Notes under the pieces: model-generated
What the model saw: the letters and a program-made list of their open reading frames with translations, nothing else
Databases searched by the model: none
Told to the model about the DNA's origin: nothing
Translations under genes and position numbers: made by a program
Shown here: in pieces, positions 1,154 to 41,400 of the stretch
How the letters are laid out: every line of letters starts with the position of its first letter
How positions within the stretch are numbered: the stretch's first letter is position 1
Source of the DNA: Polytrichum commune
Lineage: Eukaryota > Streptophyta > Polytrichopsida > Polytrichales > Polytrichaceae
Assembly (NCBI GenBank): GCA_950295325.1
Contig: OX485803.1
Location: 22,940,001-23,004,000, forward strand
DNA: 64,000 bases
Direction: 5' to 3'

Positions 1154-4100
1154 ATGTGGGAGCCATGGCATGGCTCATCCTTTACACAACAGCTGCTGCT
1201 ACTGAAACTTATACTTGTGATGCTAGCTTCACGGTGTTTTCTGATGGGGAATGCTGATCAAAATGGCACTGCCACCGCACCACCTCAAACTGTGGGCATC
1301 GGAGGGCTGTTGTCCTACAACTCCACCATCGGAAGAGCAGCCAAGGCGTCCTTGGAGCTGGCTGTGGAGGAAGTGAACAATGCTGGATTGTTGGGAAACG
1401 CCACTTTGGTGTTGCATCTTGGCAACACCAATTGCAGCGCCTTCCAAGGCGCAGCCGCTGGTAAACCAAAAAACTCAACCCATCCCTCTCGCCTCCATCT
1501 GAACGTTCCGAATGTCAAGAAGTTATGTACTCAAAATGAAATGTTAGCTTTGAAGGGAGCTCATGTCTTCTATTAATGTCATGGGCAAATTCAATCGCCA
1601 TACATATTGAAGGTGATGATCTGTTGCTTCGTAATTGAGAACCACTAGGTCCGAAGTGCATGCCTAAGCTCCTCTTACTATCTGAATGTTCCGAATATCA
1701 AGAAGTTATGTACTCAAAATAGAATGTTACCTTTAAAGGGAGCTGATGCGTTCTATCAAGTCACACATTTTGAAAGCGATGATCTGGTGCTTCATAATTG
1801 AGAATCACTAGGTTTGAAGTGCATACCTAAACTCCTCTTATTATCTATATGCCTCCGGACTGTTTAGGGGTCAATTGGCACGACCCACCAACTCACAAAG
1901 AACTCTGAAACGAGAGTAGTTTTCGACTTCTCTTCACAAATGGGGGAATTCCCAGAGTCATAGAAGCTAAGTGTGCATCTACTTATGGTTCATTCGTTTG
2001 GCTCCGGGCGAGCTGGGATGCCGAGTCACCTGAGTGCATCAGCAATAGATGGCCTTCCCGGAACATCCAAGTCTGATTCACAGATTCTTTATTGGATTTT
2101 GTTACCAGCAATGAATCAGTTGAAGGAAAAGATGGTATAATTGTCAAATTGACAGATTTTTTGTAGGGAATTTGTGTACCGGCCATGAACATGCTGAAGG
2201 AGAGGTGGGTACATTGTCTGATTGACAGGTCTTTGTTGGTTTTTGTGTACCAGCAATGAACTTGCTGAAGGAAGAGGTTATAGCCATTGTGGGGCCGCAG
2301 ACGTCGGTGGTGTCGCATTTTGTTTCGCACATGGGGACTGCTACCCGGGTGCCTTTGGTGTCGTTCTCTGCCACGGATCCTTCTCTATCTGAAGACCAGT
2401 ATCCCTACTTTGTACGCCTCACACATAGTGATACTGTGCAGATGGCCGCCATTGCAGGTACTTACAATTCCTCCTCCTCATCCTTTTGGGTCACTGCGTA
2501 TGTCATGAAGTTTTGTCCTCGAAACGGAATGTTACCTTTGAAGGGAGCTCATGTGTTCTATTTAGGTCATGGGCAAATTCAACCGCCATACATAATGAAG
2601 GCGATGATCTGGTGCTTCGTAATCGAGAACCACTAAGCTCCCCTGATTGCCTGCTTGCTTGCTCTATGTTTGCGAATTCCACCCGGTCGTAAGTTTCTGG
2701 ATGTATTGCAGGCATCATCCAGTATTACGGGTGGAGAGAAGTGGTGGCATTGTATACAGACGATGATTTTGGCAACAACGGCATTGACGCATTGGGAGAT
2801 GCTTTGCAAGCTGTGGGTTCCACAATTGTGTTCAAGGCAAATTTGGATCCCAAAATCACGAAGGACGGGATCGGCCGAATGTTGACCAAACTCTCACAAA
2901 TGGAATCAAGAGTGTTCGTGGTTCACATGGAACCGAATGTGGGGCGAGACGTCTTCCTCATGGCGGAGTGGCTCCAAATGGTCAGTAGCGGTTACGTGTG
3001 GATTGTAACAGAAGCGATGTCAAGCATCATGGATTATCTCGACACCGACCCGGAGTTTTTAAACGCAGTCCAGGGTGTCATTGGCACGCGGAGCTACATT
3101 CCACCTTCACATGATTTGCACAGTTACAGAAAAAGGTGGGAAGAAAAATATGCAAATAATTCTGACCTCGGACCAGCTCAGATGAACAACGTGTACGCAT
3201 GGTATGCTTATGATGCAGTGTGGTTGATTGCACATGCAATTCAAAACTTGTTTGCTCAGGGTGGATCTGCCACCTTCGTAGACCCTGTTACGTATCCCAG
3301 TGATGCGGGAGGGAACTCGGAGCTCACAGAATTGAAGGTTTTCCAAGATGGGCAGATGTTCAAGAAGAGTTTGCTTGGCTACCAGTTCAATGGCATCACA
3401 GGTCCCGTGCAGATGGACCAGAGGGGGGATTACGTGGGGTCTTCGTTCGAGATTCTCAACATGTGGGGAAAAGGTTTAAGGGTTGTAGGATACTGGTCTA
3501 ATTCGACAGGGTGCTTGCCGTTTGCCCCAGCTGGAAACCTCACTCCAGTTGCAGCAGTCAGTCATGCTCTGGGTCATCACTCTTCCAAGTCCTGGGTAAG
3601 CCCCATGCATCACAAACCTCTATATCTATATATCATTAACACTGATATCCTTGGTTGCAAATTTCATCTTTTGTTTTCTATACTTGATAGAACTGCAAGA
3701 TCTAAAAGGATGAAGTGTGTGAGTTAAATTACTGCTGAACGAATCATTGGCTAAATGTTGCATTGGCGTTGGAAAGATATTATACCCTGAAAGGTATGTA
3801 AGCCCCATCACAAACCTGTAAATTCATATTTCATCGACACTGGTATCCTGGGTTGCAATGTTATTCTTTTATTTCTATGTTCGATAGAACTGCAATAGGC
3901 ATCTAAAGGTTGAAGTCTGAGTTAAATCACCGTTGAATAAAACATTGGCTAAATTTTGAATTGGCATTGGAAAGACAAAATCCTGAAGGGTATGTAACGT
4001 CACTGGCTCAACATTAAAGGCTGGGCACTTGCATTTTGAGATGCCTAATTAAACTGGGCAAGACACCCAAGTCATGAAATTAGAAAGCTCTCTTGCGGAT

Positions 4101-7100
4101 TCAGCTCTTGTGATGGAGTTAGTGACGACCTATGTCTGACTTGTTTTTGGCTTCTCTGTAATAATTGTGACTGATCCAACCAATGTACGATACACAGGTG
4201 CAAACTGTTGTCTGGCCTGGTGGTGGTAATGAAGTACCGCGTGGCTGGGTGGTACCTAAAAATGGAAGGCCTCTCCTCATTGGCATACCCAACAAGAATG
4301 GGTACAAGGAATTTGTGAGCACATCTGTGGATTCTGAGAACAGGACAACTTTCCATGGATTTTGCATTGATGTCTTTGAAAGTGCGATTGCAAACCTGCC
4401 CTATTCTCTGGCATTCAACTTTCATAAATATGGCAATGGCAGTTCCACCCCAAGCTATGATGCGCTTGTGAACAAGATCGTTGAAAAGGTACAATGCTTC
4501 TGATCTCTTCCCGTATGCAGGGTCTTAGGGCACCGGTAGACTTGTGTTGCACAGAATTTCTCGTGAACTATAAGCAGATAAACTTCAACGAAGTCTCATA
4601 GGTCAAGAATTCTGGGCAGAACCTTCTTTTGATCTAGAATTCTCAACTGACGCTCGACTCCTTCGTCAGGATATGTGTACACATTCTCAATTTCGGCTAA
4701 CACTTAGTGCTTTGATGTGTTCACACGTTATTTCATACATGTCCTTCCCATGATTCACGAATCATCTCTTCTCAATTGAAAGTGTTAGGCTATGTCAAAT
4801 AAGAACATACAGAGTATGTAGTGATTCTCTCATAATTGGCTTTCAAAGCATTTTGGGGCAATGACACATGCTCATCTCACACATGAAGTCCATATATATC
4901 ATAAATCCTCATTATTGCCCACCGATTATTGAGACAGGTAGACGACCCTCTCAAGTCCTTTCATGTTCAATTCTTGAGGGGGGAAAGGGGTTTAGAGGGT
5001 AGCCTCTCTCTCAATAATCGGCGGGCAATGAGGATTTGGAAGACATAAAGGCCTTGTGGGGTAGAATGAGCATGTGGTCATGCCCCCTAAAAGAACTAGA
5101 AAGCCGATTATTGAGAAGAATCAATTTCCAGCCAATTATTTTCGTTGGCTATGTCAAAAAAGAACATACACAGCATGTAGTGATCTTTCAAGGAAAAATG
5201 GAGAAATTCTAGTGTAAGAAACAATGGATCATTTTCAGGCGTGATTTCATGCAAGTCCTTCAAGTTATTGGTGAGTGATCTCCCATTATTTGCAAGTTAT
5301 AGGCTATGTCAAACAAGAACATACACAGCATGTAGTGATCTTTCAAGAAAGCAATGGAGAAATTCCAGTGTAAGATGAGTGGTTGTATAGGTGGCCTGAG
5401 CAGGAGTTTGATGCGGTGGTGGGGGATGTAACCATCACGACGAAGCGTTCCATGACCGTGGACTTCACCCAGCCTTACACCACTTCTGGGTTGGCAGTCC
5501 TCGTCCCTGTAGCGCCAGGGGGAGGTAGCCATGCTTGGGCCTTCATGCGACCCTTCACACCTCTCATGTGGGTAACCACTGGGGCCTTCTTCTTCTTCAC
5601 CGGCCTTGTCCTGTGGTTGTTGGAGCACAAAAAGAATCGTGACTTCCGTGGTCGCCCAAAGAAGCAAATTGTCACCACTCTCTGGTAACTTGCCATAGAT
5701 TTATCCAGATGAGATTTGATTGGGATATGCTTAACTTACTCACACAAATACACTGCAGATCATAGCCACCTGCATTGTCAGCTTTTTAGTATAATCTTAT
5801 GTCCAGGATGTAACAGTTGCACATTTGAAGTATTTAAGAAAAAATCTCTCATGTACACATACTACATTATGCAACTACATTTCCAGTTTAGAACTTGTAT
5901 TCCCCTTCTATACTCGCACAACAGACTATTGGGTGTATATGTAGGAACTTTGTACAGATCATGCTGATTGCCTTGTAATGGAAGGAGGGGGCTTGTGCAG
6001 GTTCATATTCTCGACTCTTTTTTTCTCCCACAGTAAGACCTTATGACTCTATATATATTACTACCTGATTAGTTTGAATCATTCAGCATGACTTTAATCA
6101 TTTCCATTTACACAGATGTGTCATGCTGATTGCCTTGATTTGCACGAATCTCCAAATATAAGACCCTATCAATCTATATCCATCTCTACCTCACCTCATT
6201 AGCTTGAATCAATCAGGATGACTCTAATCATGATGTCCATGTCCACATTTCCTTTGAGCACACTTGTGACATCGATATACAATCTTTGTGTTGTTCGAGG
6301 AAACTGATGAGACATTGGTGCAGTGCATGTGTCATCAGTTTCCCCAAGGATGCGCTAAGATAAGTTTAGACATTGGGACAGTTCATGTGCCTCAAGTTTG
6401 AGTGTCCATCAGCACTTTATGACACACATGAGTTTGCACGAATGCCCACATGATATTTTCATCAACTAAGATTGTGACTGTGCTAATTTGACTAGTTGGA
6501 AATGTGGGGTTTACAGGGGAGAGAGTGAACAGCACTTTGGGTAGGGCAGTGCTCATCATATGGCTGTTTGTGGTGCTCATCATCATCAGCTCATACACGG
6601 CTAGTCTGACCTCCATCCTTACTGTGCAACAGCTAATGCCCACCATCCAGGGAATTTCTAGCTTGCTGGCCAGCTCTGTGCCTATAGGTTATCAAACTGG
6701 ATCCTTTGTCCGAGATTATTTGCTCCAGCTCAATGTAGCTGAGGAGCGCCTTGTGCCTCTTGATTCTCTTGCAGCATTTTCAGCTGCACTGACAAAGGGC
6801 CCCAATCACGGGGGCGTTGGCGCCATTGTGGATGAGCTTCCCTATGTGCAGCTGTTTCTGGCATCAGAGTGTGCTTTCACCATTGCTGGTCAAGAATTTA
6901 CCAAAAGTGGCTGGGGCTTTGTACGTTACACTCCAGTAGTATCCTCTTTGCACATTCTGCCAATGAAAGCTTGTGATGTTGGTCTACTAGTAACGATTCA
7001 TTAGACTTATCCGTAAAGTAAAGTAGATGAAACTATGGGTTTAGTCCCGAACCCTGAGCTTATGAGAATTAACACCAAGTCATTTAAGTTTTCTTAACGC

Positions 7101-10628: not shown

Positions 10629-11915
10629 TCAAGGGACTAAAAGACCAGGAGCAAACAAGTAGCCACTGCTACTGGGAGGGCAGCTTTGAGTACAGAGGTT
10701 ACAATCTGGCAACCAGATCCAAGACTTCTTCGTGACATTGTATGCCAAATTCTTTGCACTCCACTTCACAAACAGAATAACATCCTCATCTTCTGTGGAG
10801 GACACCGATGTAGGCGTTTTTGAGTTCTTCGTTGTTCTTCCGTGGTTACAAATTGTCGCCTCAAGAAGCACATCGATGACCTTCCACCGTTGTGTTTCGA
10901 GGTCAAGCTCCCAGATGCCGATGTTGCTTGCTTTGTCAAGTTGGTTATGAAGGTACGCTCCCACAAGGAATAGTCGGCCAGGACGGCCCGCAAGGCTCGG
11001 ACCACGAATCTCTGCCGGTAATGAGATCTTCAGTCGGCTCCACTCCTCCTTCTCCGCATCGAATGCGTGTAGTTGGTGTGGGCGAGAGGTCATGCAATAG
11101 AGCACACCTTCGCAGACGGCCGAGCAGAGCACCGACCTAATTGCAAAACCTACAAACGCACGAAACTGGCTCGCGAGGAACGAAGTGAACGGGTCCAGGA
11201 GGTTCACAAGAGTTTCGTATGACTTCCACACCTGCATTACCGAGTCAAACATGAAAGCAATCAAAATCTTCTCCTCCCGAGTTCCAACCACCTCCTGTTT
11301 CGTGACTTCCGCCACAATGATGAGCTTGTATGTGCCCACAAATCTGTTCACCACGATTCCTGCCACCGACACCAAGCTTGTGGCAGGGTCCAAGAGAGGA
11401 GGTAACGGTATGTCCCGCCACTCCCTTGTCACGGGGTTACAAAGAACTAATCTACTCGGAGTAAACCCTTTGTTCAAAGACCTCCATCCTGCGCCGAGGC
11501 AAACGAGCCCATCTGCCGCCGCTAATGGGGACTTACTGTCCAGGTCAAAGGGGAGGAACCCAAGGGGTAGACTCAGCCATTTAGAGAGATGGACATCATA
11601 TGCAAGGCAGGCGGTTCCCGAAGGCATGTGGACAAAGGTCAGAAACCACCTCTGCAGACTCCTGTTGGTTTCTGACTCCCACAGATGCATGAACCCGGGA
11701 GTCTGCAGCTTTGATTTCCAGTCTTTGCACACAGCCTGCATTCGCAGGAGGCTCTGGAGAGGCAGGCGCGCGAGAATTCGGTCCAATATGTCCACTGGAA
11801 CTCCGGACCATATGTCTATGCTGAGGGTTACTTGGCGCTCGGCCGCATCTGGATGCTTGGAAATGTTTGCCTCCCCCTTGTTGATGCCAAGCCGCGTAAT
11901 CCACATCCCAGCCAT
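10629..11915 (-). CDS. F-box protein with F-box-associated/kelch-like C-terminal region
   Basis: A single uninterrupted reading frame of 428 aa. An F-box lies at about residues 37-75 (VPVDILDRILARLPLQSLLR, then VCKDWKSKL), the motif that binds SKP1 in SCF ubiquitin ligases. The remainder has the pattern of plant F-box-associated domains: LAAADGLVCL, then LVLCNPVTREWRDIPLPP (about 156-173), and later short beta-propeller-like strands such as HAFDAEKEEWSRL and IWELDLETQRWKVI. A role as substrate receptor is inferred from the family; the target is unknown. No signal peptide or membrane segment. The Met at 11915 gives a short non-conserved leader before the F-box; later Met residues are unlikely because they would remove the domain. 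Intronless, unlike its neighbours, which is common in this family. Confidence 0.9.
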   Translation of the reverse strand: MAGMWITRLGINKGEANISKHPDAAERQVTLSIDIWSGVPVDILDRILARLPLQSLLRMQAVCKDWKSKLQTPGFMHLWESETNRSLQRWFLTFVHMPSGTACLAYDVHLSKWLSLPLGFLPFDLDSKSPLAAADGLVCLGAGWRSLNKGFTPSRLVLCNPVTREWRDIPLPPLLDPATSLVSVAGIVVNRFVGTYKLIIVAEVTKQEVVGTREEKILIAFMFDSVMQVWKSYETLVNLLDPFTSFLASQFRAFVGFAIRSVLCSAVCEGVLYCMTSRPHQLHAFDAEKEEWSRLKISLPAEIRGPSLAGRPGRLFLVGAYLHNQLDKASNIGIWELDLETQRWKVIDVLLEATICNHGRTTKNSKTPTSVSSTEDEDVILFVKWSAKNLAYNVTKKSWIWLPDCNLCTQSCPPSSSGYLFAPGLLVP

Positions 11916-14671
11916 GGCGAACTCTAATCAGCGGAGCGACAAACGCCATGCATCTGCTTGATCCACATACACTACATTCCAACACATAACTTTTCACCCA
12001 TTACACCAAAAAAAAGTCCGCAGATAAATGATTCTATGTAAAACTTTGAGAGTTTGGTCTCTCAGTGAATATTTTAGTGCAAATAGTATGATGCTTGAAC
12101 TCAATCCCTGACAACCCCAAGCGAGCTAACCCCTCACTCTTATATAAGGACTACATTCAAGAGATAGCTCCCTCTGCTTCCATTCACATCTATTCTTGTC
12201 AACATTCCTTCATTCCAACTCCAAATTTTCTCCAAAATACGAACACTGTGGAGTCAATCTTGCAACTCCTGCGGCCACAGACGAGCTTCAATTCCCAATC
12301 CAGATGGGTCGCACACTAGATCAAGAAGAGGGGATGACAACAGCAAGCCAAAGCAGGTACACCATCCCCACAAGTACATAGAAGAACCCATTGTCGCAAG
12401 GTTCAGAAGTATCTAGCCCTTAAACCCTAAGACCTCGAATGATGATGGACCGATGGCAAGAGGTAATTCACTCCAGGAGGGTCACACCATTCATACTCAA
12501 TGAAGGACTTTTCCCTTGAGATTGAGCACAAATCCACCAAACTCCGAGAACATATGAAAATTACCACATAACATTCCCACTCTTGGTTCAATTGTCACGG
12601 GCTCCCCAAAACCTAGAGCAAGGAATAAAAGTGAGAAGAATACCACTAGAAGACCACGAATAACATGAAACTCGCGCTCTTTTGAGCTGAAATGCACAGC
12701 ACTGCAAAGGCGATAAGAAGCAGCCCCAAATCGAACAATTCATACAACGTGAGCTGGTCCAAGAACTGTAACCCCTGGCTGAACCAACTCAATTTTTCCT
12801 AGAAGCACCCGAGGGTTTGCCCACTCAAGCTCCGCCCTCGCTGCTGCTGTCCGAAATTGCCATGCCTCACGGCTCACATTCCAAACCCTTGCAGACGAGA
12901 TCGGGATCCCAAAAGGTGGCGCAAGCGAGGTATAGCGAGCTCCACAACAAGCTCAAACAATTAGGGCTTGGGGGACAGAAGAGCATCTGTAGTACATTCC
13001 GTAGCTCAATCGCGTCAATCCGGTTGCAATTCTGTTTGTTCCCCACATGCAGCCCCTCTCTGCGTCCGTCTCTCTATGGGAAGTCCACCTGTGCGTGCGA
13101 GGGACGGTGCAAATGGACGATGAAGATGCTGCTGCGATCCGAAGCTCCCCATGCAATCACCTCCCCCACCAACCCCACAGGTCGCGGAGATGATGAGAAT
13201 GCCATGCAGCCTACTTGGAACTTCTTTGGCTCTTCATCTTATCTTAGGTAAGTTAGGTGAACTCTTTACTTAACTTAGAAGTTCAAGTGGTTTGGATAAT
13301 AACTAGAAAAAGCTCGGGCATGGTGGGTTCACATGGAAAAGTACTTTGGCATGTGTCGAGCTCAAGGTTTACAAATCACGGGACTCCCTTTGCATCATCA
13401 TCCACATGAGTATCGACATGTTGATGGCATTGGTATATTTGTTCTTTTTTTCTTCTAAAAGTGGGCACAATGAGATATGTGATTATGATTTATTGCACTA
13501 CACCCTTTATGGTATTTAATGCCATCTACTGTTTGAAGTGATGTAGTGCTCTTCTTGCCGTTTTTTTGGATTGCATGTAGTTTTTTGCTTTCTCTTTTTG
13601 TAGTCGAGGGCACAAATTGATAGGCCCTCCATTGTGCAAATCACTCCTCTTATCTACACGTGATTAACTCTCAATTCCAAATAGGACATGTTTATTTTAG
13701 TCATGTTTTCTTCTTAAAGCATGTAGTTATTGAGATTGTGTATCCCTTGCAAAAGGTTGATTCTAAAATTTCACAAATGGTTATCCTTTCCACCTCTAAG
13801 AGTGCTCACATCTTAGAGACATTTGGATAGTTTGATCACTTCAACATCATATCATGCTTGGTACTTTCCACCATTCCATAATACTTGCAATTTCATCCAA
13901 TCATGCACTTTAAGCCTTGGCATTGTCTCTACTGCCATGTGAACATGAGACAGGTTCATTAAGCCAAGCAATGGACAATGATCCCCCCAAGGAGACAACT
14001 CCCTTGTAGGGATACAAACCACATGCAATAAAAGGGTAGTTTAAGGGGACTATGAAATAATGCATATATTCATGAGTTATTTGATCAATATTCTTGGTGT
14101 AATGGGTGTTCAAGTTATTCTTGATATTTTACAAAGAGTTACCTCCCTGGACATATTCTTGATATCATATTGATGAAAGCATGTGCATGAAGTCACAACA
14201 AAGAAAACCCTGCAAAACCATGTTCTATTCTTCAAGATGTACTAAAGTGAAACCCAATAAGGTCATGATTTATGTAAAGTAACATTATAGAACAGTTCCT
14301 ACTTTTAAGTATATCATGAACATCAAACTTAGTAGTACTAAGCTTTATCATAGATGTTGTTAAAAATAGGAAGTCATGGAATTTTCTCAAACCTTCATAT
14401 AACAACTCCCAACTTTGATGTTCATTATTACAATTGAATTTTCACGGAATAACTGTGTGTCCTTAATGACTGTATTTTGGAAAAACAATGCCATCGATCC
14501 TTGGAACTTGGCTGACTTGACAACAAGGGAAAAACATTAATTTGGAGCAAACTAAGTGGCTTGCATGACACATTGATGACTTCAACCAATTTGGTCACGA
14601 GTGGTTTGATTCCAGAGTTGGCAAATGGCAATGAATGTAGAAGGCCATTTACACTAAATTCCTGTGCAGGA
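11916..14671. other. Intergenic region; one unassigned open frame, otherwise nothing recognised
   Basis: It separates the start of the F-box gene from the 3' end of the phosphorylase gene. An open frame on the + strand at 12817-13251 (144 codons, starting MPTQAPPSLLLSEIAM) matches no family I know, has no clear codon-use signal and is probably fortuitous. The F-box promoter should lie just above 11915. The rest is AT-rich without evident repeats, RNA genes or domains. Confidence 0.4.
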
Positions 14672-25675: not shown

Positions 25676-27839
25676 TCACTGCACAAAGGATCCTGACTTC
25701 TTCTCCTTCTTGGCAAAATTGTCAGATGTCTCCATCATTGACCCACTCGCATTCACAAGGTCCAGCTCATCGCCACAGTCTGACACATGAGAAGGAACAA
25801 ATGTTAGAGCCACCTTGAAAACTTCCCCATAAAAATCTACACAAGGAACAGGAGGATGCAAGTGATTAGAATACCAACTATCAGTGTACCACGAATTCAC
25901 ATGCAACCACACCATTCTGCTGTCATATACCTTGGGCAAGCTTCCGTTTCTTAGACCAAATTGCTGCCTTAAATCCTCGTCTCTCCCCTCTGGCTGCCTC
26001 TGGAAACTCTTCAGCTATAATTTCATCAAGCTCCCTCTCTGACATTTCCAATAATGTAGCCACTGTGTACTTGCTGGAAGCCAGTTTCTTAGAAAAATTA
26101 CGAGCTGTTTCCTCCTCCAAAAAGTTCTGAAGCAAGGCTTCGATATTTTCCTCCAAAGAGCCTGCCATGAGGCACTGGCCAAGAGATTCTTGTAGATCAA
26201 AGACCCTGGCCACCTTCTTCTTGAGGTACAAACTCGGGGAGAGGGCTGCACAAAACCAACACACCCATCAATATCCTGCCAATGTGCCCCTATGAAGTAT
26301 AGCCGACCTGATTGTGATGTGGCTTGAAATGTCAACAACTGTTTACCATGTCCTTATGTCAGTAAAATTCCAGAAACAGGTCCAGAGAAACACCATATGT
26401 TTGTGTAAATCCATGATTTACATCTACACATTTATGGAGGAATGTTTAACGTTTTAAGACCATCAAACTCATGTCCTAAATAGGTTTTGAGACAGCATAT
26501 ATATCTATAAGCACCTAAAAGCAGCCAAAACAGAGCCAAGAGCACCACAGGAACAAAAGTTGCAAGAGCTTAAACAAGAAGACACAAGTCATTCAATATG
26601 GATCACTTGACCATCTATCACTACCCCAAATAACATTCTTCAACACATATGGCAGTGACCAGTTCCAATCACACTAAGCAAACAAATTGACATCAATAAA
26701 TGGTAAGGCAAACATGCACACACGTCCCACTAGGCACAGTAGCTCAGAAGTTGCACCTCAGCCAAATTCAATTAGTATTAAGACTATTACTTGCATTCAA
26801 CAAAGGGGCATATGACAACTGCTGTCCAGATAGGCATTGAATATTGAAAGCTGAGAGTAAGGTACCCCATAAGAAACAGATCCCCACCTCGAAAGTAAGG
26901 AGTGGGCACACCACCTGCTGGTCGCGGTTGAGGAGGGGAGCATAAAAACCGCGCTTGTTTTCGAGCAGAACCAATGCGAGACTGCTTGGGACTGCCCCCA
27001 ATCAGCTCGTCTAAAAGCTCAAACCATGGCCATTTGCAGGGGCCATTACCAGGCAATTTATCTTTCTCCTGCACGCAATTGAGACTTTCAGAATGCAGAT
27101 CCCATGTAGACCAACAACAACCCTCTTCTACAGCAGTTTGTAAGGAAAAAGACAAGACACCAGAAAGTGGCAAGCAGCACATGCAGCAATTGTAAGACAC
27201 GATATATGTTTCCTTGCCAGCACAATAAGATGAACACAAACAAGAACAAAGAATGTCCCACACACCCAACTGACAGATTTACCACAGTGGCTCAGTATAT
27301 GTGCACATTTACATTCCCCTTAACGAATATTCAAACCCCCAAGAAATTCAGCAGCAGAGTTGAGTCGATTAAGTCTCTTTAAGCATATTTTACTCTCCGA
27401 GAAAACAACACTGCCGCAAGTAGGACTTGAAATACTCACCTGCCGATATCGTTTCTTCAGGCTGTCCACTTTCATACGGCATTGTTCCTGTGATTTAGGA
27501 GTCTTCTCACCCACAGTTAGAGCATTCACTCTCTTGGCTACCTCTGCCCAGTCCTTGCTACGAAAGTTGTTCCGATCCAAAGCATGGAACTTTTCCCTAC
27601 ATCACATACATGCACACATACCACAGCATCCACCCTCATCATCCATTCCACACCATGAAACAAACAAACAACTCCTCCACAATTAGGGTCTAAATTGCAA
27701 AACAGACAACAATCATCAAAAGACAGCAGCAAAGTTCACCATCTTGGATACCTCAGCTCAGTTCTTGCTTCAAAAGTTAGTTCCAGTCCAACGATTCAAA
27801 CTTATCCTTATATCATATCACATAAATACATACACACGT

Positions 27840-27876
<37 letters not shown>

Positions 27877-28904
27877 ATCCATCATCCACCATCCATCATC
27901 AACAAACAATCAACTCCTCCATAATTAGGGCCCAAATTGCAAAACACACTACATTCATCAAAAGACACCAACAAAGTTCACTCTCTTGGCTACCTCAGCT
28001 CAGTCTTTGGTACAAAAGTTCGTTCCGGTTCAATGCATGGACCTTATCCTTATTATATAAAACAAACATACATACAAACATACAAACACATACATATATA
28101 CATACCACAAGAGCCACCATTCATCATCCATTCCACACCATCATCCACAAACACTCAACTCCTCCACAATTAGAGCCCACATTGCAAAACACACAACAAT
28201 CATCAAAAGACACCAGCAATTGATCAAAATAACCCACCCATCCTAAGTCACTCCCTTATTCGTCACTTCACTTCCACTTCATCTTACCACAACCCCAACC
28301 AATTGGCACAACACCAAACCAAAATCCCTTCTACCCACCTGAAGGCGTTAATGAGGACGCCGGTGGCCGTCTCGCTCCACTCCGTCGCAGGCTCTCGTCC
28401 CGTGGCTTTCAACGACGCGTCGATCTTCCCGCCATGACTACCTCCAAGCACACCAGGCTGGAATGTGTGAAGCTGCTGTTGGGTGTCGGGCGAGTGGTCG
28501 CCTATCTCGTGATGGTGCTCGCCTCCCGCTATTTCGTGGTGGTGTGCGAACTGGTGGTGATGGTGCTGCTGCTGATGCTGATGCAAGTGATGTTGCTGTT
28601 CGTCGTCGTCCGGGTCGCTGCTGACGACCACAGTTGGGTGCGAGTGGGGGTGTGGGTGTTGGGTGAGATGGCGATGGTGTGAGTGGAGCACGACGTCCGT
28701 GGCTGTGGAAGTCCCGTTGTTGTTGTTGCCGCTGCTGTTGTTAATGATGTTGGGGTTGGGCGTGGAGACGACGACGGGGTTGGACGACGAGACTTCCACC
28801 TCGTGCGGGTGGGGGTGTTGGTGTTGAGCGGAGTGGGGATGGGGGTGCTGGTGGTGGTGGTGTTGCTGCTGCTGCTGCTGTTCCTCCTCCTCGTCCTCCT
28901 CCAT
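25676..28904 (-). CDS. Trihelix transcription factor with a LEAFY-SAM-like C-terminal segment, five exons
   Basis: Exons (minus strand): 28904-28339, 27596-27440, 27068-26888, 26245-25931, 25779-25676. They total 1323 nt (440 aa), and junction phases 2, 0, 1 and 1 all agree. The acidic start is followed by a Gln/His-rich disordered stretch. A trihelix (GT-type, Myb/SANT-like) DNA-binding domain spans about 175-266: W at about 176 in EWSETATGVLINAF, the RSKDWAEVAKRVN helix, and KWPWFELLDELIG, which resembles the SIP1 clade. Exon 4 contains YTVATLLEMSERELDEII (361-378) and GERRGFKAAIWSKKRKL (388-404), matching in order two hallmark blocks of the LEAFY N-terminal SAM-type oligomerisation domain. 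A nuclear regulator is inferred. The start at 28904 has a strong context (GCCATGG), although the frame stays open upstream. A donor at 26915 is an in-frame alternative for exon 3. Confidence 0.9.
27519..28215 (-). repeat. Three-copy tandem repeat (unit about 235 bp) that includes the 5' half of trihelix exon 2
   Basis: The genuine exon 2 edge at 27519-27600 is copied at about 27731-27820 and 27972-28060. Shared words are TTGG-TACCTC(T/A)GC-CAGT, AAAAGTT or GAAAGTT, and TTCC(G/A)GT-CAA. Each copy is followed by CA-rich DNA and by an AAATTGCAAAACA(C/G)AC block. The central unit contains a (CA)n microsatellite at about 27841-27874. The copies lie in intron 1 of the gene, keep acceptor-like AG positions and are not open in the exon frame. 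Confidence 0.8.
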
Positions 28905-35417: not shown

Positions 35418-38400
35418 CTACTTCAGAGCATCTGTAAGGATCTCGCAGACTGAGCCAGCATCCGCAGTTACCATGTTGGGACTCTCGACGGGCGCAACAT
35501 CTTCGCGGCCGTAGTTGCTGGAAGCGCGCAACTTGTTCTCCGATCCACCATCCACCACCCCCTTGAGGATGATCGTCTTGTGCGTTCCTGACAGTAGCTC
35601 CTCGTAGTCTGTGTCACCCGCATCTCCGACCACAACAAACATGTTTGCAACATCCACGTTCCATCGGGCGAAGAAATACCTGTTCGTATTTATCATCATC
35701 CTCCCAGTGTGTCAGAAATGTGGCAAGAGTGACTTCCCTCAACAATTGGCATGATAGTTCAGAATTATTTCGCACAGGCAATGGACCGAATCCACAATGT
35801 AAAAATGCAAGGAAAGTGCCAGATATACTTTCCTCAACAATTGACAGAATAGTTTAGCAATACTTTTCTTGGTCAATGGAACGAATCTAAATGTGCCAGA
35901 ATACTTCCTCAATAATCAACAAAGTTGTACAGCAATAGTTTGCTCAAACAGTGGACCAAATCCACAATGTAAAAATCCGGAAGTGCTAGATATACTTCCT
36001 CAACAATTGACAGAAAAGTTTAATAATATTTTGCTCAGACAACGGACCAAATGCAAAATATAAAAATCTAGGAAAAGTGCCAGATGCACTTCCTCACTAA
36101 TCAGCTGAGTAGTTTGCTAAAACAATGGACCAAATCCAAATGTCCCAGACATATTTCCCCGACAATCGATGAAGTGGTTCAGCAATACTTTGCTCAAAAA
36201 ATGGACCAAATCAGCAATGTAGAAATCTGAGAACTACGCCAGACATACTTCTTCACATATCAATAGACTGGGTAATTCAGCAATAGTTTGCTCAGACATT
36301 GGACCAATTCCGCAGTGTAAATATCTGTGAAATGTGCCAGACATACTTCCTCAACAATTGACAGAACAGTCCCTCAACAGTCTGCTAAGACAATGGACCA
36401 ACTCTGCAGTGTAAAAATCTGAGAAACGTGTCAGATATGCTTCCTGACCAAATCGACCGAAGAATTTAGCAAAAGTTTGCTCAGATAATGGACCGACTCC
36501 AGAATGTAAAAATCCGAGACACATGTCAGACATACTTCCTCAACAATCGACAGAACAGTTCGGCAATAGTTTGCTCAGACAATGGACCAAATTGGCGATG
36601 TAAATGTCCAAGACATGTTGATGCCTATTGGTGGTAAGATCAAATCCATCTATTCTTGATACGACATGACATGGTCTTCATACCTGAGGGCTTGGGAACG
36701 GGATGCCAATAGGGGCAGGACATGAAGGCGGGAGGAGTTTTGGCAATACATCACATGGCACCGCAAGCCTCGCATCCTCAACCTCTGCCGTAGCTGGTCT
36801 ACAGTGGGGCCCTACATATACAAGCCCATCCAAGCAAAGTGTGAGAAGAAAATAAACATAGAAAGTAATCATTGGAAGCATAGTGGGGTCGATGTAAAGA
36901 AGGCTCTCAGAAATGTAAATCATACTTCACAGACCATGCTCAAAATCTTCTGGAACAGGAGCTCTCTGAACTCTACATATCTAAGCATTAGCAACTCTTC
37001 AACTGAAACTTCTCCACTCAAAGTCCAAAGATAACTTGTAACTACATAGAAATAAGAGTAAAAGAAATAAATCAGGGTTTAAGGGTCTTACATTGTCAGG
37101 GTTGTTGAGGGTGTAAGCAAGGCAATGGGAGTTGCACAACGCGGGAGCGTCAACCAGAATCTTATCATTTTCAGCACCATCGCCATCTGGGGAATTCAAT
37201 TTAGCCATGGTTTTGCGAAGGCCGTCATAACCCCATCGGTAGTCAATATGGTTCTTGTAGTCATTGTCTGCCTGCAGATCATTCTCAATGTTTGCATCGT
37301 CATGAGTGTTGGCTGGGTAGTACACCTCACTACCACTGCTGCAAATTAGGGCATCAAATTCAAGCGCAGAAAGGCCACCAGCTTTCAGCATCTCAACGAT
37401 CTCTGATTTTGAGAGTGCTGAGGAAATAATAAATCCCGGCTGCACCCGGATGCCGGCGTCGGATCGAATGGAATTCACAATGTTTTGAATTAGGTTTACA
37501 TAGGCAGTACTAGGCTTGTTGCTTGTCATGTCATATCCGTCTACTGCAATCACAACAAGGCGTCTTCGTTTTTTCACAGGCTGAGCTTTGTGTTGGTTTC
37601 CTTGCAAGGAGGCAAACCTCCTGCCATCAAGGATAGCTTCCTCCTGCATCGGCTCAAGGCGGCCACTCTGTGTACGCTGCTTTCCTGAAAGTGGTGTGAT
37701 ATTATCAAAACCGTTGTTGTTCTTACCCAAGCTAGATTGGGTGCGTAGCGCCCGCTCAAAGTCAGCTGCGTTTGAAAAGGAAGTCATTCCTAGTTTCTCT
37801 CCATCGACACTGAGGCGCAAGGATATGTCGTGCACATCACGCAGAGAATCACCCTGCGACTCAACCTCTTCTCCCTCGCCAATGGCTTCGGTTTTCCACT
37901 GTGGATGGCGCATACGGCAGAGGGCAATTCGCGATAGATAAGTTCGACAATGCTCAGGCCATGAGAACAGATGAATGTTTTTCAAACCATTCTTCCGGCA
38001 CAATGACCATAAGTTCCTGTCTGCTACCAACTTTAGCAGTGCGTCCCCAATTTCCCGCTCATTGTGTGGATCGACCAAGAGTCCATTGGAAAGGGCCTGC
38101 CAGAACAGCATCACATGACTTGAGTTTCACCTTTTCACTTGCCAAAAAAATTGAGTGATTTTCGTCAAGACCATACTAAACGGATTCAACCTCAAAAGAA
38201 CTATAGAAGACATACCTTGTGAATGTCAACAGGACCTCCATTCTTTGTAGCAACCATAGGCAACCCATGAGCAGCTGCCTGTAACATACAGCCATTTCAT
38301 GGTAAATAAGTAGCTACTTTCCATTTCCAGGTAACCCAAAAATAGTAATTGTCAGGGATTACTTTCACCTCAGTTCCAAAAGAGTGGAGTGGGTTATACC

Positions 38401-41400
38401 TCAATTAATGTGAGCCCAAAAGGTTCAACAAGAGCTGGATTGATGAATACACCCTGCAGGTTCAGCCAAACTCTACTTCAGTAATATACACTTTACTTTT
38501 ACTTACCTACCAATTCGCAAGAGCACAAATACTGTAAATTCAGCAGGACAACTAAAGACAATACTGAAAAGTCAAGAGAGCCATTTATAGATCTCCCAGA
38601 AGAGCCAATCAGAAGAAAAATTTATGTTTCTGCATTAAGTTTTCCCAAAATAACATCAATCACAAACCTTGGTCTTCGCTGCCAGGCGATAAATCTCTGG
38701 GACATCTGACTGCTTGTGATGCTTAGGATACGCCACGTGGCCGTACAAATCATACTTGTCAATCAGCTTCAGGACAGTGGTCAGCACTGCTCCATTCCCA
38801 CCTGACATTTCGTCAATGTCATCACGGTTCCCCATGATCAATGTCTGCAGATCAAAGCACCATTATGTCATCCACAATACAACGCCAATTGAGAACATAG
38901 CATTCTTAAGCATGTGTAAGGGATGTTCTATTCTATTCTAGCCTCAAGAATAAGTTGTCAAGAGTCAAGGTCCTTTGAGTACAAACATGAATGCCAAGCA
39001 TAGTCAAGTGACAAGCTCTCAATTGTCTACACATCATTGTTGCCTATCTTCAGATACAAATCCTCCTTCAATCTACCAGAATTCTATTGAAGTACGTCCC
39101 CAATGAAATCATTCTAAGGTTATCCAGATAACCTAAGAATTATTTCATCTCCATTGGAACCTAAATAGTCTACTTAAGAAAGTCATGAAGAAGGCTAAGT
39201 GAGAAGGATATTAACATATAGTCTTTCCACATTGATAATAGTCCTTCCAGATTCATTCAAATCCAAAAGGTGGAAAGCAGTGTGTACCAAATTAGCCAAC
39301 TCTCTTAAAGGTCGTCGTTCACCGAATGCCCTCAACAGGGTGGTGATATTTTTCTTTGGATCAGGCCGAGCCAACGCCAAAATCATGGGCTTGTGCGGGT
39401 TGGTGAAGAACCGCATGATCTAAATCCACAACACAACAATCAATAGAAAGAATCCACCTCAGCTCCAAGAAAAACATAGTTGCAGATCAGTGCACTATCT
39501 TTTGCCAAGTTCATTATACCATTTAAAACCCAACTATTGCAACATGAACCATAAGGTGATGAAGGTATCAGCAAAGTAATGCAATTAAATGGCCCCTACC
39601 TCATCCCAAATTGGTGGTTTGGCACGAGGAGAGACTGGCACTGCAGCTGTCGCATCACCAGTGGTAAAAGCAATGGCCTCAGCTTCACCTTCCACCAATT
39701 CTCCAGCTTCTTGAACAATGACATTGCTGAAGTCCATTCCTGGTGGAATTACCTACATCCAAATCAAATTCCATGCCAAGATTTATTGAAGACCTGTATT
39801 TAACATCTCTGCTTCTGCAGTATCCCACAATTGTGCAGCGTGAACAATCCACCCTAAAAATCACTGGGACAAGGAAAATGACCACCTCTGTAACCTGAAA
39901 TTGAAGCAAACTGGATGTTGTGCTGCTTCCCCCTAAGGAAAACCTTTTGAACACCCTATTAGAGTTAACCATGAAATAACCTCGTGAATTAAGGAAATAT
40001 AGACCCTCTTAAGTGAGGTTAGGGGGTGTATATGAGTGTATCCAGAAAGAAAAGACACTTAGGATTCTATATTTCAATATTGCACCTTACATCATAGACC
40101 TTCTTTTAGACTTAGAATAACAAGGGGAGATGCTACCTTGGCCTAAATCATGGACATTCTTTTAGACTTAGAAATAATAAGAGGTGCCACCTCGGCCCAC
40201 ATGGGACACATGGAAGAGGGTAATGTCTATTTCGGGGGATGCAAACCCAAGGTTTGGCCAAAACTCAAAAATCCTCTCTTCTTGAACCATAACTCAATCT
40301 CCCATGAGTTCATTTTGGGGGAATTTTAGAGATTACTAAAATTGACATTTGATGAAGATTCCACCAAAACTCATGATTTGAATCTTCCCTTTTGCCACTT
40401 TACGGATAACTTGAATGTTCCGGAAGGATATGATACGTACCACCATGCGAGGCATGAAACGCCCGTGGCAGTTTACACCCCTGCGAGCCCGAGCTCGCAA
40501 AACCCGCTCCAGCTTGACATCAAAACCATCATACAGACCCCATTGCTCTTCAATCTCTTGCTTGGTACTCGTAATGACCAACTCTGCTGCATCTAATGAA
40601 AGCTCCTCTGCCTCAATCCTTCGCATGATCTTGTATGTCGCATTGATGTCCTCCTTCGATTGCCTTCCCTGCTTCAAAAGCTGCTCCAGCTTGTTGCGGC
40701 CAAGAGAATGGCCTGTTAACACCATCGGAACATTCAAAGCACCTGACAACAGGGACGCAGAATCTCCCGCGTCCGCATAGTGGCCATGAATGACGTGGGG
40801 CCAAATTAGGTCTCCACCGCCAATTTGCTCACCAAGAACTTTGGCCATGTTGAGAACATGCGCAAGAGCACCGTCCACAAATTCTTGAATGTGTGGCCAC
40901 AATAGCTCTTTCCTGATATATTGGTCCCTGCAACAATGCCCACAATAACTATTAAATTAACAGCAGACTCTGGAGGAGAAGTCACCTAGGTTTATATCAA
41001 ACGAAGTAAATTCATGAAGTTCAGTAGTAAGGAATTTAACTTTTAAGAACATTACCCCAAGATACTCCTCATGAATGACGCGATTGAGGTAAGCGGACCT
41101 GATTTGGTTGCTTATCTTAATCAGACAAATATGAGTGGTGGATTGTTAGATGCACATCTAGAAACGGACACCAAAAGGACATGTGTTCAAAAGAGATTGG
41201 AATACATGCTCAAGATTTGTTATATATTCTAGGCTTGATAGTCAACATAATTGGGGGGACCATGTGACCTTCTTATGGGTTACAGTCAGTGGACTTTGCT
41301 AATTGATAACAATTCGAGATTAGCTCCAAAACTTTCTGGGATTGATCTTGTCTTCTTCAGATACATTTGTGGACTCACAGAAATCTCAACCTCATAAATC

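Follow-up and report, generated by a model that had tools for sequence, protein, structure and literature searches.

A Polytrichum commune gene that very probably joins a trihelix DNA-binding domain to a C-terminal LEAFY-type SAM domain

Introduction

The locus studied here raises the question of whether a plant DNA-binding protein of the trihelix family may carry a SAM domain of the type present in LEAFY (LFY), as a first-pass annotation had proposed from the translation of a single exon. The window, that is, the whole 64-kb stretch of DNA analyzed (C1:22940001-23004000), belongs to a genome of 407,808,757 bases (408 Mb) distributed over 64 contigs. Our analysis indicates that one nuclear gene of Polytrichum commune very probably specifies a DNA-binding protein of the trihelix (Myb/SANT-like) family that bears a LEAFY-type SAM in its C-terminal part. 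Computation yielded both domains, a consistent gene model and a SAM fold, and showed this order of domains in two related genes as well, referred to below as L022 and L023.

Results

A five-exon gene on the minus strand

Translation and the reading of splice sites delineated a five-exon gene on the minus strand at 25676-28904, whose exons join in one frame to give a predicted product of 459 residues. Its introns measure 742, 371, 642, and 94 bases. Exon 1 (28339..28904), the start codon of which was inferred from the reading frame, encodes a His/Gln-rich N-terminus and the start of the trihelix (EWSETATGVLINAFR), and ends at the donor TTCAG/GTGGGT. Exon 2 (27440..27596), delimited by GT-AG introns and covered by a PF13837 match, provides the middle of this domain (EKFHALDRNNFRSKDW...SLKKRYRQ), and exon 3 (26888..27068), placed by the splice model and by the same Pfam match, its end (EKDKLPGNGPCKWPWFELLDELIG) followed by a linker. 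The trihelix domain thus delineated occupies residues 175-263 of the 459-residue protein, with a PF13837 score of 61.6 bits (E 9.7e-17) against a cut-off of 27, which places the gene in the trihelix family; within this family, the factors closest to it would be the SIP1-like ones.

Exon 4 had been placed in the first-pass annotation at 25931-26245, with LFY-like motifs in LFY order and with phases fitting the trihelix exons at both borders. Its coordinates (on the minus strand) and translation were confirmed, and the phases indeed fit across four introns, all of them GT-AG, in a single frame. This exon (25931..26245) encodes a linker and then the LEAFY-type SAM, as indicated by PF01698, by hhalign with three LFYs, by AlphaFold2 and by Foldseek. 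The core of the SAM, five helices predicted by AlphaFold2 from the single sequence, corresponds to 25935..26156, i.e., to residues 31-104 of the exon 4 product. Exon 5 (25676..25836) adds a short C-terminal tail and the stop, and the SAM does not need it: when intron 4 is retained, the frame gains GI and then stops, two residues past exon 4, so that the SAM is complete with or without splicing of this intron.

A LEAFY-type SAM domain in exon 4

The exon 4 product reads ...KYTVATLLEMSERELDEIIAEEFPEAARGERRGFKAAIWSKKRKLAQ, in which SERELDEII and GERRGFKAA stand ten residues apart. It was compared with the SAM_LFY family (PF01698, family cut-off 25.2 bits). Exon 4 scored 27.6 bits (E 0.001) when the entire 408-Mb genome was searched in six frames, its product alone scored 27.8 bits (E 2.6e-6), and the product or its parts ranged from 27.6 to 28.8 bits, over the cut-off. 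By contrast, the full 459-residue protein gave 25.1 bits (residues 354-407, E 1.8e-5), 0.1 bit below it. The match to the LFY SAM profile that the annotation led one to expect was therefore obtained with the exon product and narrowly missed with the full protein. Within the 80-position profile, the Pfam match extends from 21 to 76, and the first helix is taken from the structure model.

Scored with a profile built on the three LFY SAMs of this genome, the exon 4 domain gave 25.5 bits, which none of 5,000 residue shuffles of this domain attained (best shuffle, 13.6 bits). With the same profile, exon 4 ranked first (24.4 bits) among the 505 open reading frames of at least 50 residues in the window, the next one scoring 4.6 bits; when frames of at least 35 residues were considered, no other SAM-like frame stood out in the 64-kb window, the next after exon 4 reaching 6.2 bits (E 2). 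The comparison of the three-LFY SAM profile with exon 4 by hhalign, a single pair, yielded a probability of 95.3 (E 2e-8), and a sequence search of the PDB with exon 4 returned the Ginkgo LFY SAM (GinLFY, 4ude) as the best of 3 hits (E 0.0058). When exon 4 served as a single-sequence query against the genome, LFY was reached only weakly (E 0.139 and 2.66). SAM_1 and SAM_2 gave no Pfam match to the window protein up to E 10, and SAM_KSR1 appeared in Pfam searches at E 0.13 and 0.094.

The predicted fold was in line with this assignment. In the AlphaFold2 model, computed without alignment, pLDDT averaged 72-88 in ten-residue blocks from residue 31 on, for a mean of 71.9 over the whole exon 4 product, the first 28 residues lying below 50. 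When this model was compared with the PDB using Foldseek, two chains of 4ude occupied ranks 1 and 2 of 56 hits (probability 1.00, E 0.036 and 0.048, TM by target 0.60 and 0.70), in a list that held no hit at all below E 0.001; the next SAM, that of tankyrase, had a probability of 0.51. The predicted model is thus a five-helix SAM fold most similar to 4ude, as the annotation had implied. Sequence search and alignment-free model both point to the same protein, and the proposal of a LEAFY-type SAM in exon 4 is supported by both profile and fold.

Two related trihelix genes with a SAM-like C-terminus

Searching the genome with the trihelix part of the protein returned 71 matches at E 1 or better. 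The best E-value outside the window gene was that of L012 (5.1e-12, 30% identity), a longer single-exon trihelix. The highest identities were found in L022 (contig C4) and L023 (contig C1), at 60 and 64%, respectively, over 45-53 residues, and the trihelix of these two genes is split by introns, unlike that of L012. No LFY-SAM-like frame was found in the pieces of about 3 kb examined at L012 and L015-L021. At loci L017-L021, near-identical trihelix-like frames recur across several contigs, and an internal stop interrupts two of these five; they have the appearance of a transposon family or dispersed repeat.

In L022 and L023, the last trihelix helix continues in one open frame into a C-terminal SAM-like domain, so that the fusion is read there without any splice inference. 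This domain is similar in size to the window SAM and occupies the same place in the protein. Its alignment to the LFY SAM profile covered 64 columns (probability 82.5, E 9.8e-6), and the scores of L023 (15.5 bits) and L022 (13.4 bits) were each reached by none of 5,000 shuffles. Other measures gave a weak result: Pfam gave no SAM match to either domain, and a PDB profile search returned 4 hits, none below E 0.4, of which PHC3 and GinLFY are SAMs. The model of the L023 SAM, built from a two-row alignment, had a pLDDT of 61.7 and five helices in SAM order, and SAMs accounted for two of the 6 weak PDB hits that Foldseek returned for this low-confidence model.

A direct match between these SAM-like domains and exon 4 was absent (probability 0.7): a genome search with exon 4 retrieved neither L022 nor L023, and a search with the L023 SAM retrieved L022 only. 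Intron positions within the trihelix, modeled by eye, comprised none common to the window gene and its two relatives. Aligning exon 4 with L022 and L023 only, MAFFT left a 14-column gap in the latter two across the TVATLLEM stretch; a nine-row SAM alignment was used instead. Taken together, profile, fold, gene model and these two relatives support the earlier suggestion that the domain has a second lineage outside LFY, constituted by the window gene and two related trihelix genes with a SAM-like domain.

The wider LFY-SAM family of the genome

The six-frame search of the genome with PF01698, taken down to E 10, yielded 6 matches, of which 5 exceeded the cut-off. The LFY DNA-binding domain, PF17538, also gave 6 matches, all within the genes L001, L002, and L003, which are the true LFYs and the sole PF01698 loci with a PF17538 match. 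None was found near the window gene, which is thus distinct from LEAFY/FLORICAULA genes. Two of the three LFY copies (L031; L003/L034) differ at a DNA-binding position, MRHYVHC versus MRDYVHC, where we take H to be the LFY type I state and D the moss type II state.

The remaining loci hold other arrangements. At L004 (L025:4842-5105), a SAM_LFY match of 36.9 bits lies in an 88-residue frame, for which neither the LFY DNA-binding domain nor another clear partner domain was found. The frame upstream of this SAM in L025 was considered as a zinc finger; Pfam gave nothing above cut-off there (zf-BED, E 0.076), and no fusion is therefore claimed. L006 scored 22.3 bits with PF01698, below the cut-off, and has a relative, L033, at E 6.0e-5. 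On the minus strand of L026, which contains L006, the SAM frame (4357-4929) lies upstream of an F-box/kelch-type frame located about 1.6 kb away (F-box E 3.1e-6). On the minus strand of L033, a SAM-like frame (1462-1824) similarly lies less than 0.6 kb upstream of an F-box/kelch-type frame (F-box E 1.7e-8). The SAM-like stretch of L033 had no SAM_LFY match in Pfam and reached 11.2 bits versus 10.7 for the best shuffle with the own-LFY profile, which makes it the weakest case. L026 and L033 are thus possible, putative SAM-F-box genes, the SAM of L033 being weak.

Elsewhere in the window, the minus strand holds an F-box protein with a kelch/KIB1-4-type propeller at 10629-11927 (F-box E 2.4e-7) and, at 36999-40956, a frame that presumably corresponds to a sucrose-phosphate synthase; a plus-strand frame at 2693-7004 resembles what we assume to be a glutamate-receptor-like channel.

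Discussion

Origin of the trihelix-SAM gene

The preferred reading, a single gene with both domains, has to be weighed against the possibility that exons 4-5 form a small gene of their own, located downstream of a trihelix gene of the ordinary kind. The 642 bases of intron 3 leave room for such an arrangement, and an in-frame ATG directly before the SAM (residue 27 of the exon 4 product, CLMAGSLEEN) allows a short frame of its own; splice sites and phases nevertheless fit across the exons, and L022 and L023 hold the trihelix end and the SAM-like domain in one open frame. We consider two separate genes to be extremely improbable, and the earlier claim that trihelix and SAM belong to one gene is supported by both the gene model and the single-frame joins of the relatives. 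Only slightly less improbable is a domain of another SAM kind which would have converged on LFY-SAM. SAM folds are indeed common, and the Pfam match leaves both ends of the profile uncovered, but neither SAM_1 nor SAM_2 matched up to E 10, and LFY came first by sequence as well as by fold, with a clear gap in Foldseek probability to tankyrase.

A more serious alternative, although still an unlikely one, is that the fusion of a trihelix with an LFY-type SAM took place on two occasions, in the window gene and, separately, in the common ancestor of L022 and L023. The differing trihelix intron positions would fit two such events, as would the lack of a direct match between the two SAM types. Against this, the SAM occupies the same place in all three proteins, and in a trihelix tree of 11 rows (the window gene, L022, L023 and eight other loci of the 71 matches, two rows being partial), L023 and L022 had the shortest paths to the window gene. 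In a midpoint drawing of this tree, the window gene stood opposite L022/L023 across a weak fork (49/0), the bootstrap not having settled. The tree of nine SAM domains, which has long branches, placed the window SAM nearest the LFYs, with L022 and L023 apart; a tree holding the three trihelix-linked SAMs together was nevertheless not rejected (p-AU 0.248). One old fusion followed by fast divergence is thus a possible origin of the three genes. The nine-SAM tree, with its long branches, does not separate a trihelix gene that was the donor of the SAM, as suggested in the first-pass annotation, from one that was its recipient.

Association surface and proposed function

In the LFY SAM, the ML-surface residues T72, T75, and E83 touch R112 and R116 on the EH surface; either T75E or R112E turns the Ginkgo SAM monomeric, and single-face mutants of GbLFY-SAM still dimerise with each other (PMC4844672). 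According to the same source, the SAM helps LFY to bind cooperatively and to reach closed chromatin (PMC4844672). The five contact positions were mapped by spacing onto the nine-row alignment. The window SAM keeps T72, T75, and E83, i.e., all three ML positions, and has R at 116 and W at 112, so that four of the five residues are kept; a KKRK stretch adjoins R116, and the end helix is basic. At the same positions, taken in the order T72, T75, E83, R112, and R116, the genome's LFYs have T, T, E, R, and K or R; L023 has D, T, D, E, and E; and L022 has D, T, E, E, and E.

The W at position 112, together with E at both EH positions of L022 and L023, suggests that LFY-like polymers may not form. 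The intact-looking ML face and the basic end helix make homo- or hetero-association of the window SAM likely, in a mode that may differ from that of LFY; association with itself, judged from the sequence, has about an even chance. From a mechanistic point of view, the SAM would bind itself or other LFY-type SAMs via ML/EH contacts, and several trihelix units could then bind clustered or weak sites together, by analogy with the cooperative binding of LEAFY, which uses its own DNA-binding domain.

The SAM may instead be a non-polymerising partner module, whose ML surface engages the EH face of a different LFY-type SAM, a reading that we hold to be somewhat less than evenly probable. Candidate partners would be LFY, L004 and the F-box-linked SAMs, either recruited to trihelix sites or capped in their polymerisation, which we regard with the same reserve. 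The retention of all three ML residues while R112 is replaced by W fits such a module, and the mutual dimerisation of single-face GbLFY-SAM mutants provides a precedent (PMC4844672). Five other SAM_LFY loci and the relative L033 could supply partners; R116 and the neighboring KKRK, however, keep the end helix basic. On a wider scale, the LFY-type SAM might be a shuffled module, joined to the LFY DNA-binding domain, to a trihelix and, apparently, to F-box/kelch proteins, in which case mixed polymers would link LEAFY, trihelix factors and ubiquitin ligases. We regard this as more speculative and rather improbable. A partnership between LEAFY and the F-box protein UFO exists in flowering plants, and mixed SAM polymers, if real, would parallel it.

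Comparison with known systems

The window gene resembles LEAFY/FLORICAULA (PF01698 and PF17538) in carrying an LFY-type SAM within a plant transcription factor, in keeping T72, T75, and E83, and in having 4ude as its top match by both sequence and fold. It differs in that the SAM lies on the C-terminal side, a trihelix serves as the DNA-binding domain, R112 is replaced by W and the loop that precedes GERRGF is shorter than that of LFY by four residues. Like other trihelix (GT) factors (PF13837), it possesses a canonical Myb/SANT-like trihelix. Many of these factors have coiled-coil C-termini, where the window protein has a SAM instead. In animals, transcription factors with a SAM are represented by TEL and YAN of the ETS family. 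These similarly combine a DNA-binding domain with a self-associating SAM, as proposed for the window gene, but their DNA-binding domain is unrelated and their SAM is of another kind. YAN and ETS are also named in the LFY SAM study cited above, which describes the N-terminus of LFY as not homologous in sequence to other SAM domains (PMC4844672).

The association of a trihelix with an LFY-type SAM brings two known domains into a new combination, and no report of such a protein was found in the part of the open-access literature that was searched. The trihelix-SAM gene offers a second lineage for comparison with the SAM of LFY, and with it the origin of LEAFY can be tested through the sampling of mosses and algae. 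It also suggests that SAM-driven cooperative DNA binding may have served more than one family of plant transcription factors.
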